Of a stretch of 64,000 nucleotides of DNA, positions 2,750 through 41,444 are shown piece after piece. The stretch comes from Erysipelotrichaceae bacterium (GTDB lineage: Bacteria; Bacillota_I; Bacilli_A; Erysipelotrichales; Erysipelotrichaceae): NCBI GenBank assembly GCA_030528645.1, contig JAUMYM010000002.1, positions 1 to 64,000 on the forward strand, in the 5' to 3' direction. The position numbers were made by a program, and so were the translations under genes. The first letter of the stretch is position 1. Each line of letters opens with the position of its first letter. The notes below the pieces were generated by a model. The model saw only the letters and a program-made list of their open reading frames with translations. It had not been told where the DNA came from and ran no database searches.

Positions 2750-4723
2750 TTATCCAGCTTTTAATTCTAAAATAATATCTCTTAAAGAAGCAGCACGTTC
2801 AAAGTCTAATACTTTCGCAGCTTCCCTCATTTCTTTTTCAAGCGAAACAATCAATTCTTCCTTCGCCTTTTGACTTCCTTTTGACTTACGCATGATATAC
2901 TTGCTAGCCATTTCTTTGGTTTCCTTTCCATGAATAGCTTCATGGATTTCTTTTTTAATCGTAGTTGGCACAATGTTATGTTCTAAATTATATGCCATTT
3001 GAATTTGACGACGACGATTGGTTTCTTCAATTGCCTTTTGCATCGAATCAGTCATATGATCAGCATACATAATCACGCGACCTTCACTGTTTCTGGCAGC
3101 TCGCCCTATGGTTTGAATTAATGATCGCTCAGAACGTAAAAATCCTTCCTTATCGGCATCTAAGATACACACCAAAGCCACCTCCGGAATATCCAAACCT
3201 TCTCTTAATAAGTTAATGCCTACTAAAACATCAATTTTTCCTTTACGTAAATCTAAAATGGTTTCAATGCGCTCTAACGTTTTTGTTTCATGATGTAAAT
3301 AACTAACCTTTAAATCATGATTCTTTAAATACGCTGTTAAATCCTCTGCCATTTTAACCGTTAAAGCCGTTAATAACACACGCTGTCCCTTTTTAATACA
3401 ACTGCGTATTTCATCCAAAATATCATCAATCTGTCCCTTTGTTGGTCGTACTTCCACAATAGGATCTAATAGCCCTGTTGGACGTATGATTTGTTGTATT
3501 ACTTCATGATTTACCTTCTCTAACTCATAATTACCAGGAGTTGCGCTGATATAAATCACTTGATGAATAACATCTTCAAACTCATCAAAACGCATTGGAC
3601 GATTATTCAAAGCACTTGGCAAACGAAACCCATATTCCACTAATGTCTCTTTACGAGCACGATCACCATTGTACATCCCTTTAATTTGAGGAATCGATAC
3701 ATGCGACTCATCAATCACTAATAAAAAATCGTTTGGAAAATAATCAAAGAGATTATATGGACGCTGTCCTTCTTGACGACCATCAATATGAGCAGAATAA
3801 TTTTCAATTCCCGGACATACTCCAAACTCTCTTAAAGCTTCTAAATCATATCGACAACGTTGTTCTAAACGTTGTTTTTCAACCAATTTATCTTCTTGTT
3901 CAAAATACTTTAAACGTTCTTCTAACTCCTCTTCAATGGCTAAGGCAGCCCTTAAAATTTCATTTTGATTACGCGCATAACCTGTAGCCGGAAAAATGTT
4001 ATAAACCATATAACCATTTAATGTCTTAGAAGTAATCGGATCAATTTCAGTAATACGTTCAATTTCATCCCCAAACATTTCAATCTTCAACAAATAGCTA
4101 TCGGTATGCCCTAAAGAAACTTCAATCACATCGCCTCGTACTTTAAATGTTCCTCGTTTGCGTTCCACATCATTTCTTTGATATTGACGTAAGACAAACT
4201 TCTTTAATAACTCATTACGATCAATGACTTCTCCTACTTTAATCGTAAAAAACATTCCCTTATACTCCAAAGGATTACTGGAAGCATAAATACAAGCCAC
4301 AGAAGCAACAATAATGGTGTCTCGATGTTCCAACACGGAATTATAAGCAGACATCGCTAACATGGTTAACTCATCATTAATCATCGCATTTTTCTCAATG
4401 TATGTATCTGTCTTTGGCATATAAGCTTCCGGCTGATAATAATCGAAACTGGAAACATAGTATTCTACATGATTATTCGGAAATAATTCTTTAAATTCGG
4501 AATACAACTGTCCAGCCAAGGTTTTATTATGCGCAAAAATCAAAGTAGGTTTATTCACCTGTGCAATCACATTGGCAATAGTAAACGTTTTCCCGGTTCC
4601 TGTTGCCCCTAGTAAAACTTGTTCCTTCTTATGTTGCTTTAATCCTTCGACCAATTGTTTAATTGCCTTTGGTTGATCTCCCGTAGGTTTAAACTTACTA
4701 ATTAACTCAAACTTAGAATCCAT
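2750..4723 (-). CDS. uvrB: Excinuclease ABC subunit B
   Basis: 657 residues, the normal UvrB length. This is the DNA-damage verification helicase of nucleotide excision repair; it is loaded by UvrA and recruits UvrC. Visible: Walker A GATGTGKT at residues 39-46, the tyrosine-rich beta-hairpin region ([19 protein letters not shown]) that inserts between strands, Walker [10 protein letters not shown], the helicase motif GRAARN, and a C-terminal UVR motif ([15 protein letters not shown]) that contacts UvrC. The first 11 bases overlap the end of the upstream ctp protease gene, so the two are probably translationally coupled. uvrA does not follow; a PASTA protein gene occupies the downstream position. 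LexA control cannot be seen because the gene is internal to an operon. Confidence 0.97.
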
Positions 4724-6203
4724 CGATCAGTTCCATTGCTTTCATTAATTGTGCATCATTCTTTTTATCGGAATTAATATTTTTACGAACACTTGAAATG
4801 ATGGAATCTAATGTCTTACGATTTAAAATACCATCTGTTTCTAAATTATGTTCTAACTTATATTGATTTAAGGTATCTTTAAAATACGCATCAAAATATC
4901 CATCTTTACGTAACACCGGATAGCCCAAATAATCAAGTGCATACTGTGCGACCTTAGCATAATCACTGACAGAATCTACTTCATAACTACTACTTTCCTC
5001 CAAATTTGGCACTTTTAAGTAAAAGTAATCATGTAGTTTTACTGCTACATCTGGTTCAATTCCACCTAAATCATTTACCCAGATACCATTTGGACTTGTC
5101 CACTTGCTTGTTGTGTATTTTAAAGCAGAGCCATCTTCAAAGTATTCCGTTGTTTGAACCGTACCTTTTCCATAAGACTTTTCACCAACGAGAATCGTAT
5201 TTGGATATTGTTCTTTTAATGATAAAGCCAACACTTCTGCAGCACTTGCTGTTTGATGATTGATTAAAATAACAATACGATCCGCATAAACAATACGATT
5301 ACCTTTTGTATAACCATTTTCAACATGACCATTGCTGTAAACCTGTTTAATCACTAACGTATTTTCTTGTAAGAAATGACTTGCGACATCTACAAGAGTA
5401 TTTAAGTAACCTCCACCATTATCACGTAAATCAATAATTAAATTCTTCATACCCTTTTGGTTTAAATCTTTTAAATACACACCTGTTTCTTTTCCGGTTT
5501 CACTACCAAAACTATAAATTTCTAAATAGCCCGTATCTTCATCCAGCATATACCCATAAGCGGTATTATTCACTTCATCACGTGTAATATCAATGACAAT
5601 AGGATTCCCTTGGCGTAAGAATTCAATAGAAACAACCGTTCCCTTCATCCCTTTGACCATCTTACTGATTTCTTCGCTTGTTAAACCTTCCAAAGAAACC
5701 CCATCTACTTTTATAAAGACATCTCCAGCTAAGACACCGGATTTTTCAGCCGGTGAATCTTTAAAGACTTTTTGTACAACAAAGGAACCATTATCCTCAC
5801 TGTATTGAACTCCAATTCCTACAAAACCCATATCAATATGAGATGTAAAAAGCTCTACTTCTTCTTGTGACATATAAGAAGTATGTTTATCCTCTTCAAA
5901 GCTTGTCATACCGTAGTAAGCTTTATCCATAATTTTTTGATCCACTTCTTCAATCATGGATGAAAAATACCATTTATGATTCATGATATTTTGCATACGT
6001 TCTAACTTTGTTCGTTTATGACTAATCGTTTCTCCTTGCGTATTGCCTATCCCTTCCATACGACCAACAATAAACCCTAACGATCCTGCTACAAGCATCA
6101 AAGCTACAACCATCGCAATCAAACGATTTTGTCTTCTTCTATCTGCACGTTCATCTTCCCATAGATGACGCTTTAACTTTATTGTTACCTTCTTTTCTTC
6201 CAT
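4713..6203 (-). CDS. C-terminal processing serine protease (S41, Ctp) with PDZ and peptidoglycan-binding domains
   Basis: 496 residues. A basic cytoplasmic N-terminus precedes one membrane helix (about 27-47), so the protease is anchored facing outward. A PDZ domain follows ([16 protein letters not shown] ... [12 protein letters not shown]), then the S41 core with the nucleophile Ser in [13 protein letters not shown] and the general-base Lys in [11 protein letters not shown]. The last ~80 residues ([18 protein letters not shown] ... [15 protein letters not shown]) match a PG_binding_1 domain. This domain order is that of CtpA/CtpB of Firmicutes. In Bacillus subtilis ctpB follows ftsEX; here ftsEX lie a few genes upstream. 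Substrates may include wall hydrolases or envelope regulators (inference). It overlaps uvrB by 11 bases. Confidence 0.93.
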
Positions 6204-35984: not shown

Positions 35985-36011
35985 GAAAAAATAGAGCACT
36001 CGCTCTATTTT
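35985..36011 (-). terminator. Intrinsic terminator after the SpaA-repeat gene
   Basis: AAAATAGAGC and GCTCTATTTT flank a 4-base loop at about 35987-36010, with a T run on the minus strand. The TAG stop is in the stem. Confidence 0.82.
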
Positions 36012-39000
36012 AACGCTTCATGTTTTTTAATCGCATGCAAAGCCATCACACTTACCAAAAAGCCAATCATATAATACAATGCACTTGCATCATCTCTTGT
36101 CTTAGCTATTTTAACCTTCGTCTTTTCCTCTGTTTTTTCCTCTACAACTGGATCCACTACTTTAGGTGTAGGTTGAGGCAATGGATTTGGCTGAGGCTTT
36201 GGATGAGGAAGTGGATTTGGTTGTGGTTGTGGTTGTGGTGCATTTGTATAGGTATTGATAACCGTAAATCCCTGAATATTTGTTTGATACTCTTGTAACA
36301 CCAACACTTGTCCTGACGGATCAACCTGTTTGATACTATATTGTATTTCTTGATTTCTTTCATCATATTGTGGTAATAATTGCCACTCTACAAAGGAACT
36401 GCCTGGCATAAGTTTTAAAATCGGTTGAGGCACTTCACTTTCCGGTTGATTATTGGTTGTACTATAAAGCTTAAACCATACATCCGGATGATTCGCCGGA
36501 GCATTTTGCCATACAACATCAACACGAATGGACTTACGCTTTAATGCGTTGGTAACATTTACTTCTTTTACCACCCCATCACCAACATGAATTACTTGCA
36601 TAGCGGAATTGACTTGATAGCGAAGTGGTGTATCTACTTGACGAACTTCCCAATCACCATAAATCAATGATGTAAATTCTACTCTACCAGAAGCATCGGT
36701 TGTACCTTGTTTTTCAATGCCGTTGGATATGATACTAAAAGTCGCATCCGCAATCCCCTTACTTGGATCTTCTTGATCGACTAAAACAATGGCAATATGT
36801 CCATCATGAACAACACCCAATTTACGATTGGTAATCGTTTGTAAATCTTTATCTGGATTTGCACTTGTTAACGCAACCGGAATCGCTTGTGTTGTTATTT
36901 CATATCCATCCGGTGCTTTTGTTTCTTTTACGGTATAATTCTTTAACTCTAAGTTATCAAATACGACAACTCCATCCTCTAATGTAGTAACTGTTTTTAC
37001 TACACCTTGTTCATCTTCTAAAGCAAAGGTTGCACCCTTCAATGTTTTCGTTGGTTCTTGTTCATCTACTTTTACAAAACGAATGCTTCCTTTTTGAATC
37101 ACTTGTTTTTGATTCTTAAAGTCATTCACTATAACTTTAGGTTTATTTGCTTCAATACTTACTGTTTGAGTACTTAATTGATAATGAAGCGGTGCCTTTG
37201 TTTCTTTTAAGATATATGTACCATATACAACTTGTGGAAACAACACTTCTCCTAAGGCATTACTCTTAGCTGTATATTTAAGTTCATCATTTTGAAATAA
37301 TCCAAATTCTGCATCGGCAAGTGGTATCGTTGAATCATCAAAGTCTACCTTTTTAAAGGAAACTTCTGCAAACTGTACAGTTGGTTTCTTAACGTTTTCT
37401 ATATAATTTAAGTCAATTTCTAATTGATCTACTCTAACCCCAATCTCTTTTGGTATATTATCTAATACATAACCATTAGGTGCAATGGTTTCTTTTAGCT
37501 TATATTGTCCAAGTTTTACATTTTCAAAACTTACATAGCCTTGTTCATCCGATACTGCCGTATATACTGCAACATCGTTTTGTTCTAAGATGAACGTTGC
37601 ATGTTGTAATTTGATATTGTGATTATCACGATCCACCTTATAGAAATAGATATGTCCTGTTTTCTGCTTATTTTGAATGATCATTTCTTGATTCTCTTCA
37701 TTAATTTCTACCGAATGAGGCATAGGATCTAATACATATTTATCTAGTGTTTTTACTTCTACAAGTTCATAGTTACCATAGTCTAATTGTTCAAACATCA
37801 CTAACCCCAAATGATTGGTAACACCTTGTTTTACAACATGTCCATCTTTCTTTAATTCAAACTCTACCCCTTGTAATAGGCTTGTCGGATCACTAGCATC
37901 CACCTTTAACACTCGTAACGTTCCTTTTAAAGGCACTATTACTTCTTTTTCATTTACAAATGGATCTATAGATACATTCGGTTGTGTTGAGGTAAGAATA
38001 ACTTCTCTTGTTTCCTTACTTAATTGATAGCCACTTGGCGCAACTTCTTCTTGAAGTGTATAAGTACCAAGTTCCACTTGGTTAAAGAGTACCTCTCCAC
38101 TAGCAGTAGAAGTAGCACGATATTTTATTTGATTATTTTGTTTTAAAACAAAGGTTGCATTTGCCAGTTTCATCATCACATCTTCTTTATCAACCTTTTC
38201 AAATGCAATGCTCCCTTTTATTTTTTCTAAATCAATACTTACATTATTTTCAATGGCATTGGTAACATTGACATTCAAGGATTTTGTCCACGGTAAATAT
38301 CCATCATAATCTCCATCTAATGAAATAGTATAAAGACCAAAAGTTAAATTCGAAAAGACAACTCTACCATCCGGACCTGTTTCCTTTGTTTCAAACGCAC
38401 TATTTTGTGATAATTTAACACGAACATTTGGAAGTCGTTGATGCGTTTCATTGTCATATACGGTAACTAAAATAGAACCCTTATCATTTAATACTTTTCG
38501 ATTCGTCACAGAATTACCATAAGAACCAGATGAGGCAATGGTAACACTACGAATTTCATCACTTACCAAATACCCACTTTGTGTTGTTGTTTGTGATAAA
38601 TCATACGTTCCATAAGGAACATCTTTAAAACGCACCAATCCAATGAGATTACTTGTCGCTTGAGCGATGATTTCATTGCCTTTTTTAAGAACAAACGTCG
38701 CATCACGTAAACCAAGGGTTTGCTCATCGGCATCTACCACTTTAAAAGAATATGCTCCTTTTAAAACAGGTGCTTCCGGTTCAATCTTATATGGCGCTAA
38801 ATCGTTTTGCTGATTAGCCACTACTTCTATATCACGTACTTCTATATTTAATAGATAACTATCCGGTGCACTCTTCATCTTTAATTGATATGACCCTGGT
38901 AAAACACCCGGAAAACTAACCGTACCATCATTTTTAGACTCAGCAATATAACGCTCTTCTCCATGTTTTACTAAGACAAACTTACTACCTACTACAGGAG

Positions 39001-40210
39001 CACCTGTATCTTTATGTAAACTCTTAAATGTAATTGAACCAAGTTGAGTAGTCGCTAGTTTTTGATTAAAGAAATAATCGGTATCTACCATTGTTGTTGG
39101 TTCAATTTCTACCGTTACCTGCTCATTGCTTTTTTGATAGCCAATAGGAGCTTCTATTTCAACAACTTGATACACTCCAACCGGAACATTCTTAAATACC
39201 GCCAGTCCATCTGCTGAAGTAACTTGTTGTTGGATAATCTTTCCATTCGAAGATAATCCCAACTTAGCACCCTTCAAATAAATATCACGGTTATCTTTAT
39301 CCACTTTAAAAATACGCACATGCCCTGTTGTAGCCGTATTTTTAACATCACCTAAATCACGATCACTTGTAAAATACGTTGAAAAAATAACACCATCAGG
39401 AAACTCATTGAGATACCCTTCAGGAGGTGTCATCTCTACTACTTCATAATAGTTTGGTACAACATCACGAAAAACCAATCGACCATCTTGTCCTGAAGTA
39501 GCAGTATATAAAAATGGTTGATCACTTGCTGTACGTAACCCAAACTTTGCTCCACCTAATTTCTTTTCAGGCTCATTGCTATCCACCTTAGTAAAGCTAA
39601 TCGTAATCTTTTTTAAACGATTTATTACATTAACTGTATACGGACTATTTGTTTCATTTAATTCTACATCCACATCTGGATTTTCATTTAATAAATACTT
39701 TTCAGGCGTAAAACGCTGTTTAATGCGATAACTACCTACTTCTAAAGAAGTAAAACTCAACAATCCATATTCATTGGTATCAAGTCCTTCAATAAAATCA
39801 TAACGACCTTCTGCATTTCTTTTATGCAACTCAAAGGTAGCCTCTTCAATAGGATGCCCTTCTTCATCCTTTAATTCCACCTGAATAATCCCATAAGCAA
39901 AAAACTTCTCATTGCTTACAGTAAGGATCGCTTCCTTCCCCACTAACTCTTCTTCATTTGCAGCACTATGATCTACAGTACTATCTTCATTGACGTTTTC
40001 TTCTACCAACGTTTCCGCTGTAGTGGCTTCTACAAACTCCTCTTCGGTTTCCTTTAAAGCAGTCTCTTTCGGTTCTACTATTTCACCAGCAACCTCTTCC
40101 ACTGTTTCTTCACTTGAAGTTTCTTCGTTTAAAGCCGACACATACCTGTTGTAAAGTGCACCAACAAATAGTAGTTGCAAGCACAAAAAGATCGATAGTA
40201 TTTTTTTCAT
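36005..40210 (-). CDS. Giant SpaA/Cna-B repeat wall-surface protein with atypical sorting signal
   Basis: 1401 residues, the largest protein here. A signal peptide (about 1-27) is followed by a Glu/Thr-rich stretch to ~100. From ~103 to ~1225 I count about twelve SpaA-like (prealbumin-type) units of roughly 90 residues, then one longer Cna-B-like domain (~1228-1322), a Pro-rich linker (~1325-1350) and a C-terminal hydrophobic helix (~1376-1394) with tail KKHEALK. Several units keep a Lys in F-x-K-V-D, a Glu in K-E-T-x-A-P-x-G-Y and an Asn near the end, the set that forms spontaneous Lys-Asn isopeptide bonds. The expected LPxTG reads IAKTR (1368-1372), then DDAS. It resembles pilus backbone or adhesin proteins, but no sortase is nearby. 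AAGGA precedes the ATG. Confidence 0.88.
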   Translation of the reverse strand: MKKILSIFLCLQLLFVGALYNRYVSALNEETSSEETVEEVAGEIVEPKETALKETEEEFVEATTAETLVEENVNEDSTVDHSAANEEELVGKEAILTVSNEKFFAYGIIQVELKDEEGHPIEEATFELHKRNAEGRYDFIEGLDTNEYGLLSFTSLEVGSYRIKQRFTPEKYLLNENPDVDVELNETNSPYTVNVINRLKKITISFTKVDSNEPEKKLGGAKFGLRTASDQPFLYTATSGQDGRLVFRDVVPNYYEVVEMTPPEGYLNEFPDGVIFSTYFTSDRDLGDVKNTATTGHVRIFKVDKDNRDIYLKGAKLGLSSNGKIIQQQVTSADGLAVFKNVPVGVYQVVEIEAPIGYQKSNEQVTVEIEPTTMVDTDYFFNQKLATTQLGSITFKSLHKDTGAPVVGSKFVLVKHGEERYIAESKNDGTVSFPGVLPGSYQLKMKSAPDSYLLNIEVRDIEVVANQQNDLAPYKIEPEAPVLKGAYSFKVVDADEQTLGLRDATFVLKKGNEIIAQATSNLIGLVRFKDVPYGTYDLSQTTTQSGYLVSDEIRSVTIASSGSYGNSVTNRKVLNDKGSILVTVYDNETHQRLPNVRVKLSQNSAFETKETGPDGRVVFSNLTFGLYTISLDGDYDGYLPWTKSLNVNVTNAIENNVSIDLEKIKGSIAFEKVDKEDVMMKLANATFVLKQNNQIKYRATSTASGEVLFNQVELGTYTLQEEVAPSGYQLSKETREVILTSTQPNVSIDPFVNEKEVIVPLKGTLRVLKVDASDPTSLLQGVEFELKKDGHVVKQGVTNHLGLVMFEQLDYGNYELVEVKTLDKYVLDPMPHSVEINEENQEMIIQNKQKTGHIYFYKVDRDNHNIKLQHATFILEQNDVAVYTAVSDEQGYVSFENVKLGQYKLKETIAPNGYVLDNIPKEIGVRVDQLEIDLNYIENVKKPTVQFAEVSFKKVDFDDSTIPLADAEFGLFQNDELKYTAKSNALGEVLFPQVVYGTYILKETKAPLHYQLSTQTVSIEANKPKVIVNDFKNQKQVIQKGSIRFVKVDEQEPTKTLKGATFALEDEQGVVKTVTTLEDGVVVFDNLELKNYTVKETKAPDGYEITTQAIPVALTSANPDKDLQTITNRKLGVVHDGHIAIVLVDQEDPSKGIADATFSIISNGIEKQGTTDASGRVEFTSLIYGDWEVRQVDTPLRYQVNSAMQVIHVGDGVVKEVNVTNALKRKSIRVDVVWQNAPANHPDVWFKLYSTTNNQPESEVPQPILKLMPGSSFVEWQLLPQYDERNQEIQYSIKQVDPSGQVLVLQEYQTNIQGFTVINTYTNAPQPQPQPNPLPHPKPQPNPLPQPTPKVVDPVVEEKTEEKTKVKIAKTRDDASALYYMIGFLVSVMALHAIKKHEALK

Positions 40211-40391: not shown

Positions 40392-41444
40392 ATGAAATTA
40401 AAATGTTTAAATTCAGTTCTAATTTTATCTTTACTTTTAGCAATTTCTCCTATTAAAGTACATGCAGAAGATGCTAAAAGTGATGCAAATCTAAATCCAA
40501 CTTCGATTCTTGTGATTCAAAAAGTAGAAGTTCCTATTAATGAGCCTGCTGCCGATGAAATTATTAAAAAAGCAATTATTGAAGAAACAGTAAAAAGTAA
40601 ACTATACGACATCGAAGCCATTGATATTGAAAAATCATCTATTGTCTTAAGTGCTATTGATCTATCTAAAGTAAAAGAACATAAAGTAAATGCTTTAATT
40701 AACTTAGAACTAAAACCATCTGCCAGCTTACAATTTGTTGACAAAACATTTCAAAGTGAAGTCTTAATCAATGTTGTTGACAATGAAGCTCCGGTCATTG
40801 ATATGAAATACAATTACTATAACTTAGAATATAACGAAGAATATAAACCGTTAGACTATATCGAATCCATCTTCGACAATTCCTTTGAACAAGAATTTGA
40901 TATTTCTGTCGAAGGTGCAGAAAACATCTCTTCAGAAAATCCTGGTGTTCACTACGTTACGTATCACGTAAAAGATTCAAGTGGTAATGAAGCAACACTT
41001 GATTTTAAAATGATTGTTGATGGTAAACCAAAAACAAAAACAAAAAAGAGTAAAAATGTTGCGATTAACTATAGTGGTGACTATAGTGTACAAGAAATGT
41101 TAGATGCGATTAATGCGGTGAGAAGTGAATATGGCTTATACGCGTTAACACTTGGTTCTGACTCTGCTCAAGCTGCCTCAGCCGTACGTGCCAGTGAAGC
41201 TGCCGGTTATGTTTCACACACCAGACCAGATGGTACTTCTTATAAGACAGCGTTTAATGATTATGGGGTAAGTTACTCTTATGCCGTAGAAATTTTAACG
41301 TATGCAGGATCAACGGTCCAAGATAAACTAAATTGGTGGATGAATTCTCCAACCCATCGCAAACATGTCTTAACATCAACTGCTCGTAAAATCTCAATTG
41401 GTTACAGTGGTAAGATGTGGCAAGCAATTGTTTATAACGATTAG
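40392..41444 (+). CDS. Secreted CAP-superfamily (SCP-like) protein with Ig-like domain
   Basis: 350 residues. A signal peptide ends near VHAEDA (about 26). The N-terminal third is unassigned. Residues ~130-210 contain the DNEAPVIDMKYNYYNLEYNEE and VTYHVKDSSGNEATLDFKM blocks of a bacterial Ig-like (DUF5011/HYR-like) domain. The C-terminal ~115 residues (MLDAINAVRSEYGL ... WWMNSPTHRKHVLTS) are a CAP domain with the conserved His, Glu and His positions visible. Bacterial CAP proteins are secreted and may act on the wall or host; no enzymatic role is settled. It is divergent from the SpaA-repeat gene across a 181-base spacer. Confidence 0.88.
   Translation: MKLKCLNSVLILSLLLAISPIKVHAEDAKSDANLNPTSILVIQKVEVPINEPAADEIIKKAIIEETVKSKLYDIEAIDIEKSSIVLSAIDLSKVKEHKVNALINLELKPSASLQFVDKTFQSEVLINVVDNEAPVIDMKYNYYNLEYNEEYKPLDYIESIFDNSFEQEFDISVEGAENISSENPGVHYVTYHVKDSSGNEATLDFKMIVDGKPKTKTKKSKNVAINYSGDYSVQEMLDAINAVRSEYGLYALTLGSDSAQAASAVRASEAAGYVSHTRPDGTSYKTAFNDYGVSYSYAVEILTYAGSTVQDKLNWWMNSPTHRKHVLTSTARKISIGYSGKMWQAIVYND

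Follow-up and report, generated by a model that had tools for sequence, protein, structure and literature searches.

Can a surface protein be sorted to the cell wall when its signal reads IAKTR in place of LPxTG? The question is raised by a gene in the first 64,000 nucleotides (positions 1 to 64,000 of the forward strand, here called the window) of contig JAUMYM010000002.1 from Erysipelotrichaceae bacterium (GCA_030528645.1). The open reading frame (ORF) at 36005-40210 on the minus strand starts with ATG, is intact and encodes a SpaA-repeat surface protein of 1401 amino acids. A first-pass annotation had seen in its pentapeptide either a decayed signal or the target of a sortase with different specificity, and had proposed searching the genome for sortases and similar endings and comparing orthologues. 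We ran these searches in the window genome (G000, 1.38 Mb, 97.5% complete), in Erysipelotrichaceae bacterium OH741_COT-311 (G001, hereafter the sister), which is its nearest relative in the comparison, and in further genomes of the order. The results favour the second explanation: IAKTR followed by Asp is probably functional as a class B sorting signal, at the permissive extreme of the range found in the genus. The tag itself appears to be one form of a loosely defined signal whose constant core is Lys-Thr-any-Asp and which the class B sortases of the family may use.

The C-terminus of the protein runs PKVVDPVVEEKTEEKTKVK-IAKTR-DDAS-ALYYMIGFLVSVMALHAI-KKHEALK, with a Lys directly before the pentapeptide (KIAKTR); the Pro-rich linker, the pentapeptide, the hydrophobic helix and the basic tail thus stand in sortase-substrate order, as first annotated. 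The codons of IAKTRDDAS are ATA GCT AAG ACA AGA GAT GAT GCA AGT, and ATA, GCT and AGA are each one base away from LPKTG codons, as had been pointed out; however, Ile cannot be counted as a change from Leu, since the signals of this genome usually begin with it. As a yardstick we used the genome's own signals. A profile of 50 positions, built on other surface proteins of both species (eight C-termini) and excluding the protein under study, detected its tail in the window genome with an E-value of 2.7e-4 (21.5 bits), which exceeds chance. A second profile of 14 rows, now including this tail, was searched against both species and returned, in the window genome, 13 intact signals and one short remnant (contig C26) at E <= 4.7e-8, the next match in either species lying at 0.06. 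The intact signals of the window genome, IAKTR among them, read IPKTG (3), VPKTG (1), IPKTM (2), VPKTM (1), IPKTS (1), IPKTQ (3), VVKTQ (1) and IAKTR (1). All 13 have Lys-Thr and an Asp after the fifth residue, and the Lys, the Thr and this Asp were invariant in the alignment of 14 signals. The first residue was Ile in 10, Val in three and Leu in none; the second was Pro in 11 of the 13, Ala in the protein under study and Val in one other (VVKTQD, contig C24); the fifth was Gly in four, Gln in four, Met in three, Ser in one and Arg in one. The local pattern is therefore [I/V]-P-K-T-x-D, with x being G, M, Q, S or R, and with no Leu and only 4/13 Gly the window genome does not use LPxTG. IAKTR lacks the LPxTG pentapeptide of class A substrates, but it has the K-T-x-D core, the C-terminal helix and the basic tail of the genus's class B type signals. 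The puzzle thus comes mostly from the class A yardstick, because the local signals put both the Ile and the Arg of IAKTR within range, and Ala for Pro is its sole unusual feature among them.

The sister gave a similar picture. Its 13 signals, one of them cut by a contig end, have Gly (5), Met (3), Gln (2), Lys (1), Ile (1) or Arg (1) at position five, and Pro (12) or Ala (1) at position two. Between orthologues of the two species, paired by neighbourhood and similarity, the fifth residue differs (S/M, M/I and Q/G). The C26 remnant (about 4988-5053, L142) is, in the stretch read, all that is left of a 955-amino-acid surface protein, a short piece of its C-terminus. The sister has this protein in full, with an end in IPKTKDTTQ and a helix; a basic residue at position five therefore also occurs in an intact signal. 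The VVKTQ protein of contig C24 had no match in the sister, and a search of five relatives gave one short weak match (G010). Two adjoining giant surface proteins on contig C22 (L045:910-10582; 1551 and 1584 amino acids) are identical over their last 90 residues and look like the product of a recent tandem duplication or conversion.

To read such signals the window genome has two sortases that we could find, both of class B type. The first lies beside fmt on contig C22, scores 158.7 bits on the NCBIfam class B model (cut-off 153.75) and keeps the expected His, Cys and Arg. Among solved structures it is nearest to 1rz2 and 5jcv, the SrtB enzymes of B. anthracis and L. monocytogenes (the latter being Lmo2181), and three residues near the P3 Pro in B. 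anthracis SrtB (L106, F121 and Y138) are kept in it when the alignment is read by eye. The second sortase, on contig C9 (about 3893-4582, L246), shares 24% identity with the C22 enzyme and sits among genes that by eye look like sugar-metabolism genes, with no adjoining substrate. The Pfam PF04203 searches missed the C9 sortase, which was found through the sister's sortase regions and confirmed with the class B profile; the class B model gives its sister orthologue 111 bits, short of the cut-off. As PF04203 misses the C9 enzyme though it finds this orthologue, sortase counts by PF04203 are lower bounds, and with a genome 97.5% complete and one sortase missed by the first search, a gap in the list is possible. 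No sortase of class A, C, D or E and no pilin sortase was found in the window genome. With the general model TIGR01076 no match exceeded the cut-off in the window genome, the sister or three relatives (G013, G040 and G043), which is weak evidence about other classes since all five have known sortases. On the class E model NF033747 the C22 sortase reached 27 bits against a cut-off of 160, and the sister's three sortases reached 26.2 bits or gave no match; a class E reading of the tag was rejected, no such enzyme having been found in either species. Both class B type sortases and the IAKTR protein are present in both species. For the sister's third sortase no counterpart was found in the window genome. 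On contig C19 (L141:4790-7801) the sister also encodes a 775-amino-acid surface protein that by eye looks like a thioester-domain protein (no NCBIfam match), ends in YPIVPKMGV without a membrane helix and has a class B-like sortase of its own directly after it. This resembles AbpA, whose LPKTS-AVK signal also has no helix. We found no counterpart of this protein in the window genome either.

On the favoured reading, the signal peptide would export the protein and the C-terminal helix would hold it in place. A class B sortase, most likely the C22 enzyme and otherwise the C9 enzyme, would then read the Lys-Thr-x-Asp core, accept Ala in place of Pro and cut between Thr and Arg, and the Thr would be joined to peptidoglycan, displaying the SpaA stalk on the wall. 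A bolder version is possible, although we lean somewhat against it: no longer depending on either of the two classic anchor points of a sorting signal, the class B sortase of the genus may read a bare Lys-Thr-x-Asp, tolerate Ala or Val for Pro, and at the same time cut before Gly, Ser, Met, Gln, Ile, Lys or Arg. An enzyme of this kind would be a highly permissive natural transpeptidase, and standard LPXTG annotation would miss part of its substrates. Should the signal work at all, genome scans based on LPxTG miss real wall proteins (NCBIfam is silent on the IAKTR, IPKTM and VVKTQ tails), and the genus would supply naturally occurring substrates for probing class B recognition, in which position two is Ala or Val and the residue at the cut is Lys, Arg, Met or Gln; these would also be of use for sortase ligation. 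If the signal does not work, the protein is an ordinary membrane-retained paralogue.

Several results weigh against a working signal. The protein has Ala rather than the Pro of the [IV]PKTxD type at position two, and its 21.5 bits compare with 78-84 bits for the genome's six best signals, five of which were rows of the profile. Its tail matched no NCBIfam family at E 10, the TIGR01167 anchor model included, and it is absent from the genome's 10 PF00746 matches at E 10. On the NCBIfam anchor model two IPKTG tails of the same kind scored 32 and 29 bits (cut-off 15.9), and the IPKTM and VVKTQ tails that we tested had no NCBIfam match. Y39 and K143, modelled as contacts for the Asp in B. anthracis SrtB, are G and Q in the C22 enzyme in the alignment by eye. 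Only two species carry the protein among the matches listed. Published work adds that Pro is essential in the AbpA LPKTS signal with streptococcal SrtB (reported in PMC4974636), that C. difficile SrtB, a sole sortase, is described as not cleaving NVQTG (PMC4155245), that the Listeria SrtB peptide KNAKTNDS is given as inactive in vitro (PMC11987632) and that, according to a sortase E paper, processing by class A and B sortases is disrupted when P3 becomes Ala (PMC5148588).

On the main rival reading, sorting recognition was lost with the Pro and the Gly, the protein now being held in the membrane by its helix, where it may be displayed or shed by proteases, and the helix being conserved as an anchor. 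We regard this as unlikely, though with appreciable weight. It draws on the reported loss of processing on Pro-to-Ala or other Pro changes in several tested sortases, and on the low profile score. The comparison with the sister bears on it from both sides. The orthologue, about 90% identical, carries IAKTRDDAS and not LPxTG, and 38 of the last 39 residues are common to both; over these 39 codons there are four synonymous and one non-synonymous changes (24.5 and 92.5 sites; Fisher p 0.006), which shows that the tail is under purifying selection. The nine-codon core is without amino-acid change, a weak point in favour of the signal, since its one synonymous change is too few to test. A membrane anchor would also explain selection on the helix, and conservation by itself, although it excludes an error and a dead gene, is compatible with a sorting signal and with a plain membrane anchor alike. 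It is nevertheless a better argument than the 1401 intact codons first held against decay, which say little about the signal itself. Lost recognition is also hard to square with the retention of Lys, Thr and Asp alongside change at the other positions, and with further cases of Ala or Val as the second residue, both within this genome and among relatives with one sortase. No orthologue was found beyond the sister; among the matches listed across 60 genomes, all others were partial and at most 43% identical.

For the relatives we tabulated 81 C-termini from outside the genus, among the matches listed in 37 genomes, of which G036-G049 belong to another family within the order. L127, L129 and L130, where no signal was seen, and L123, which lies in the same place as L168, were left out of the table. 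After removal of two C-termini with no readable motif and five with no T-x-D, 74 were kept, the motif being taken as the last T-x-D in range, so that a few may be misplaced. A T-x-D profile served to select these C-termini, so that T and D are in part constant by selection. The second residue was V in 30, P in 27, T in 7, A in 4, I in 3, and G, L and K in one each, and a non-Pro residue before K-T-G-D is common in the order. G013, G040 and G043 have one sortase by both the Pfam and the class B profile search, with class B over its cut-off; their 17 signals among the 74 have P (10), V (4), A (2) or G (1), seven of the 17 thus lacking Pro. The two with Ala, VAETGD and VAQTGD, match IAKTR at that position. 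Another relative, G020 (L163-L166; listed as 98% complete), has DTGDTSN and DTADTT-type signals and no sortase by PF04203, which may be a failure of the search, given that PF04203 missed the C9 sortase.

These relatives also bear on a division of labour in which the C9 sortase is dedicated to off-pattern signals such as IAKTR and VVKTQ and the C22 enzyme handles [IV]PKTx. Such a division would fit the presence of both sortases and the IAKTR protein in both species and the distance of the C9 enzyme from the C22 enzyme. We consider it improbable, as signals without Pro also occur in relatives in which one class B sortase was found, and the C9 gene, in its sugar-metabolism-like surroundings, has no link to the IAKTR gene. 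Finally, a strain mutation, an assembly error or a dying gene, suggested by nothing but the general oddity of the pentapeptide, is scarcely credible: the same signal in the separately assembled sister rules out a sequencing error or strain mutation, and the whole gene has a ratio of non-synonymous to synonymous substitution rates (dN/dS) of 0.16 and no stops. Of the two explanations first offered, a sortase with different specificity thus fits better than decay, given two class B type sortases and [IV]PKTxD signals with mostly non-Gly x; LPxTG as the yardstick did not stand.

The remaining features of the protein were read from the translation or found with Pfam, and all lie on the minus strand. 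A probable signal peptide (residues 1-27; 40130-40210), recognised by eye from MKK, a hydrophobic core and an end near VSA, has no amino-acid change against the sister. An acidic, low-complexity stretch follows (residues 28-107; 39890-40129). Twelve SpaA-type units (Pfam, E 1.3e-155) occupy residues 106-1223 (36542-39895), and a thirteenth, Cna_B-like unit, lacking the Lys and Glu of the triad, occupies residues 1224-1323 (36242-36541); its Pfam Cna_B match is weak (E 0.0053; 17.6 bits, cut-off 22.3). In an alignment of hand-delimited units, the Lys-Glu-Asn triad of a predicted self-made isopeptide bond is present in 7 of the 13 units (2, 3, 7, 8, 9, 10 and 11) and incomplete in six. Pfam gives twelve SpaA stretches, but "about twelve isopeptide-type units", as first described, is too many, the Cna_B unit stays below its cut-off, and the proposed rigid rod is weakened with six units lacking a full triad. 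The Pro-rich linker with a Glu/Lys stretch (residues 1324-1367; 36110-36241) is about 20 residues longer in the sister, with PQPNP-type repeats. It leads to the signal core IAKTR-DDAS (residues 1368-1376; 36083-36109; profile match, alignment and identity in the sister), with the predicted cut at Thr1371/Arg1372, the hydrophobic helix ALYYMIGFLVSVMALHAI (residues 1377-1394; 36029-36082), which aligns with those of the other signals, and the basic tail KKHEALK (residues 1395-1401; 36008-36028). No obvious separate binding domain was seen. In both species a gene for a CAP-domain secreted protein (40392-41444 in the window) is divergent from this gene.

Synonymous divergence from the sister (L042) varies along the gene, being 0.18-0.19 before codon 101, about 0.5-1.3 in codons 101-650, about 0.04-0.4 in codons 651-1000 and 0-0.11 in codons 1001-1300; it is 0.05 in the CAP-domain neighbour and 0.26-0.31 in rarA, a flavoprotein gene and srtB. 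Between the two species the gene is a mosaic, which suggests that recombination exchanged the middle of the stalk. COT numbers denote canine oral taxa, and the bacterium of the window is related to dog-mouth species.

Our literature search found no paper pairing LPXTG with IAKTR, and comparison is possible with several known systems. With its twelve SpaA stretches the protein resembles the SpaA or pilin prealbumin-like repeat proteins (PF17802), seven of its units having full triads. A pilin of a pilus operon was nevertheless rejected: unlike in pilins, no pilin sortase was found in the window genome, and on the NCBIfam SpaH/EbpB model NF033902 the protein scored 76 bits against a cut-off of 95. 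The LAXTG substrates of class E share the replacement of Pro by Ala, but the class E enzymes are described as actinobacterial (PMC5148588). A paper on a Filifactor alocis sortase (PMC13257024) deals with class A and was set aside. In oral streptococci, AbpA and SrtB combine a sortase B, a KT core (LPKT in AbpA) and a variable fifth residue; SrtB is reported to cut LPKTS between T and S, the S being the most variable residue (PMC4974636). AbpA differs in its lack of a hydrophobic helix and its need for Pro. C. difficile SrtB, with (S/P)PXTG substrates, is an example of a class B sortase serving several surface proteins, and one peptide used has Asp after the pentapeptide (PMC4155245); it differs in keeping Gly, in leaving NVQTG uncut and in being a sole sortase, whereas the window genome has two of class B type. 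Class B preferences have been summed up as [E/N/P/Q/S/V]-[A/P/V]-[K/Q/S]-[S/T]-[G/N/S] in a 2025 study of B. anthracis SrtB, where Asp after the pentapeptide is reported to be required for full activity (PMC11987632), and Pro in class B signals has been reported as not absolutely required. The closest case is Lmo2185 (SvpA) of Listeria, which is described as anchored by the class B sortase SrtB through the motif NAKTN (PMC3208642) and, like IAKTR, has Ala second, Lys-Thr, a non-Gly fifth residue and then Asp (KNAKTNDS, PMC11987632). It differs in having Asn first and Asn at the cut, where the present protein has Ile and Arg, and in its role in haem/iron uptake, described in a paper that also treats the NXXTX motif (PMC4010754), whereas the present protein forms a SpaA stalk. 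A class A sortase serves other proteins in Listeria, unlike in the window genome as searched. The literature thus appears to allow both a working and a lost signal, with a close working precedent in Listeria.

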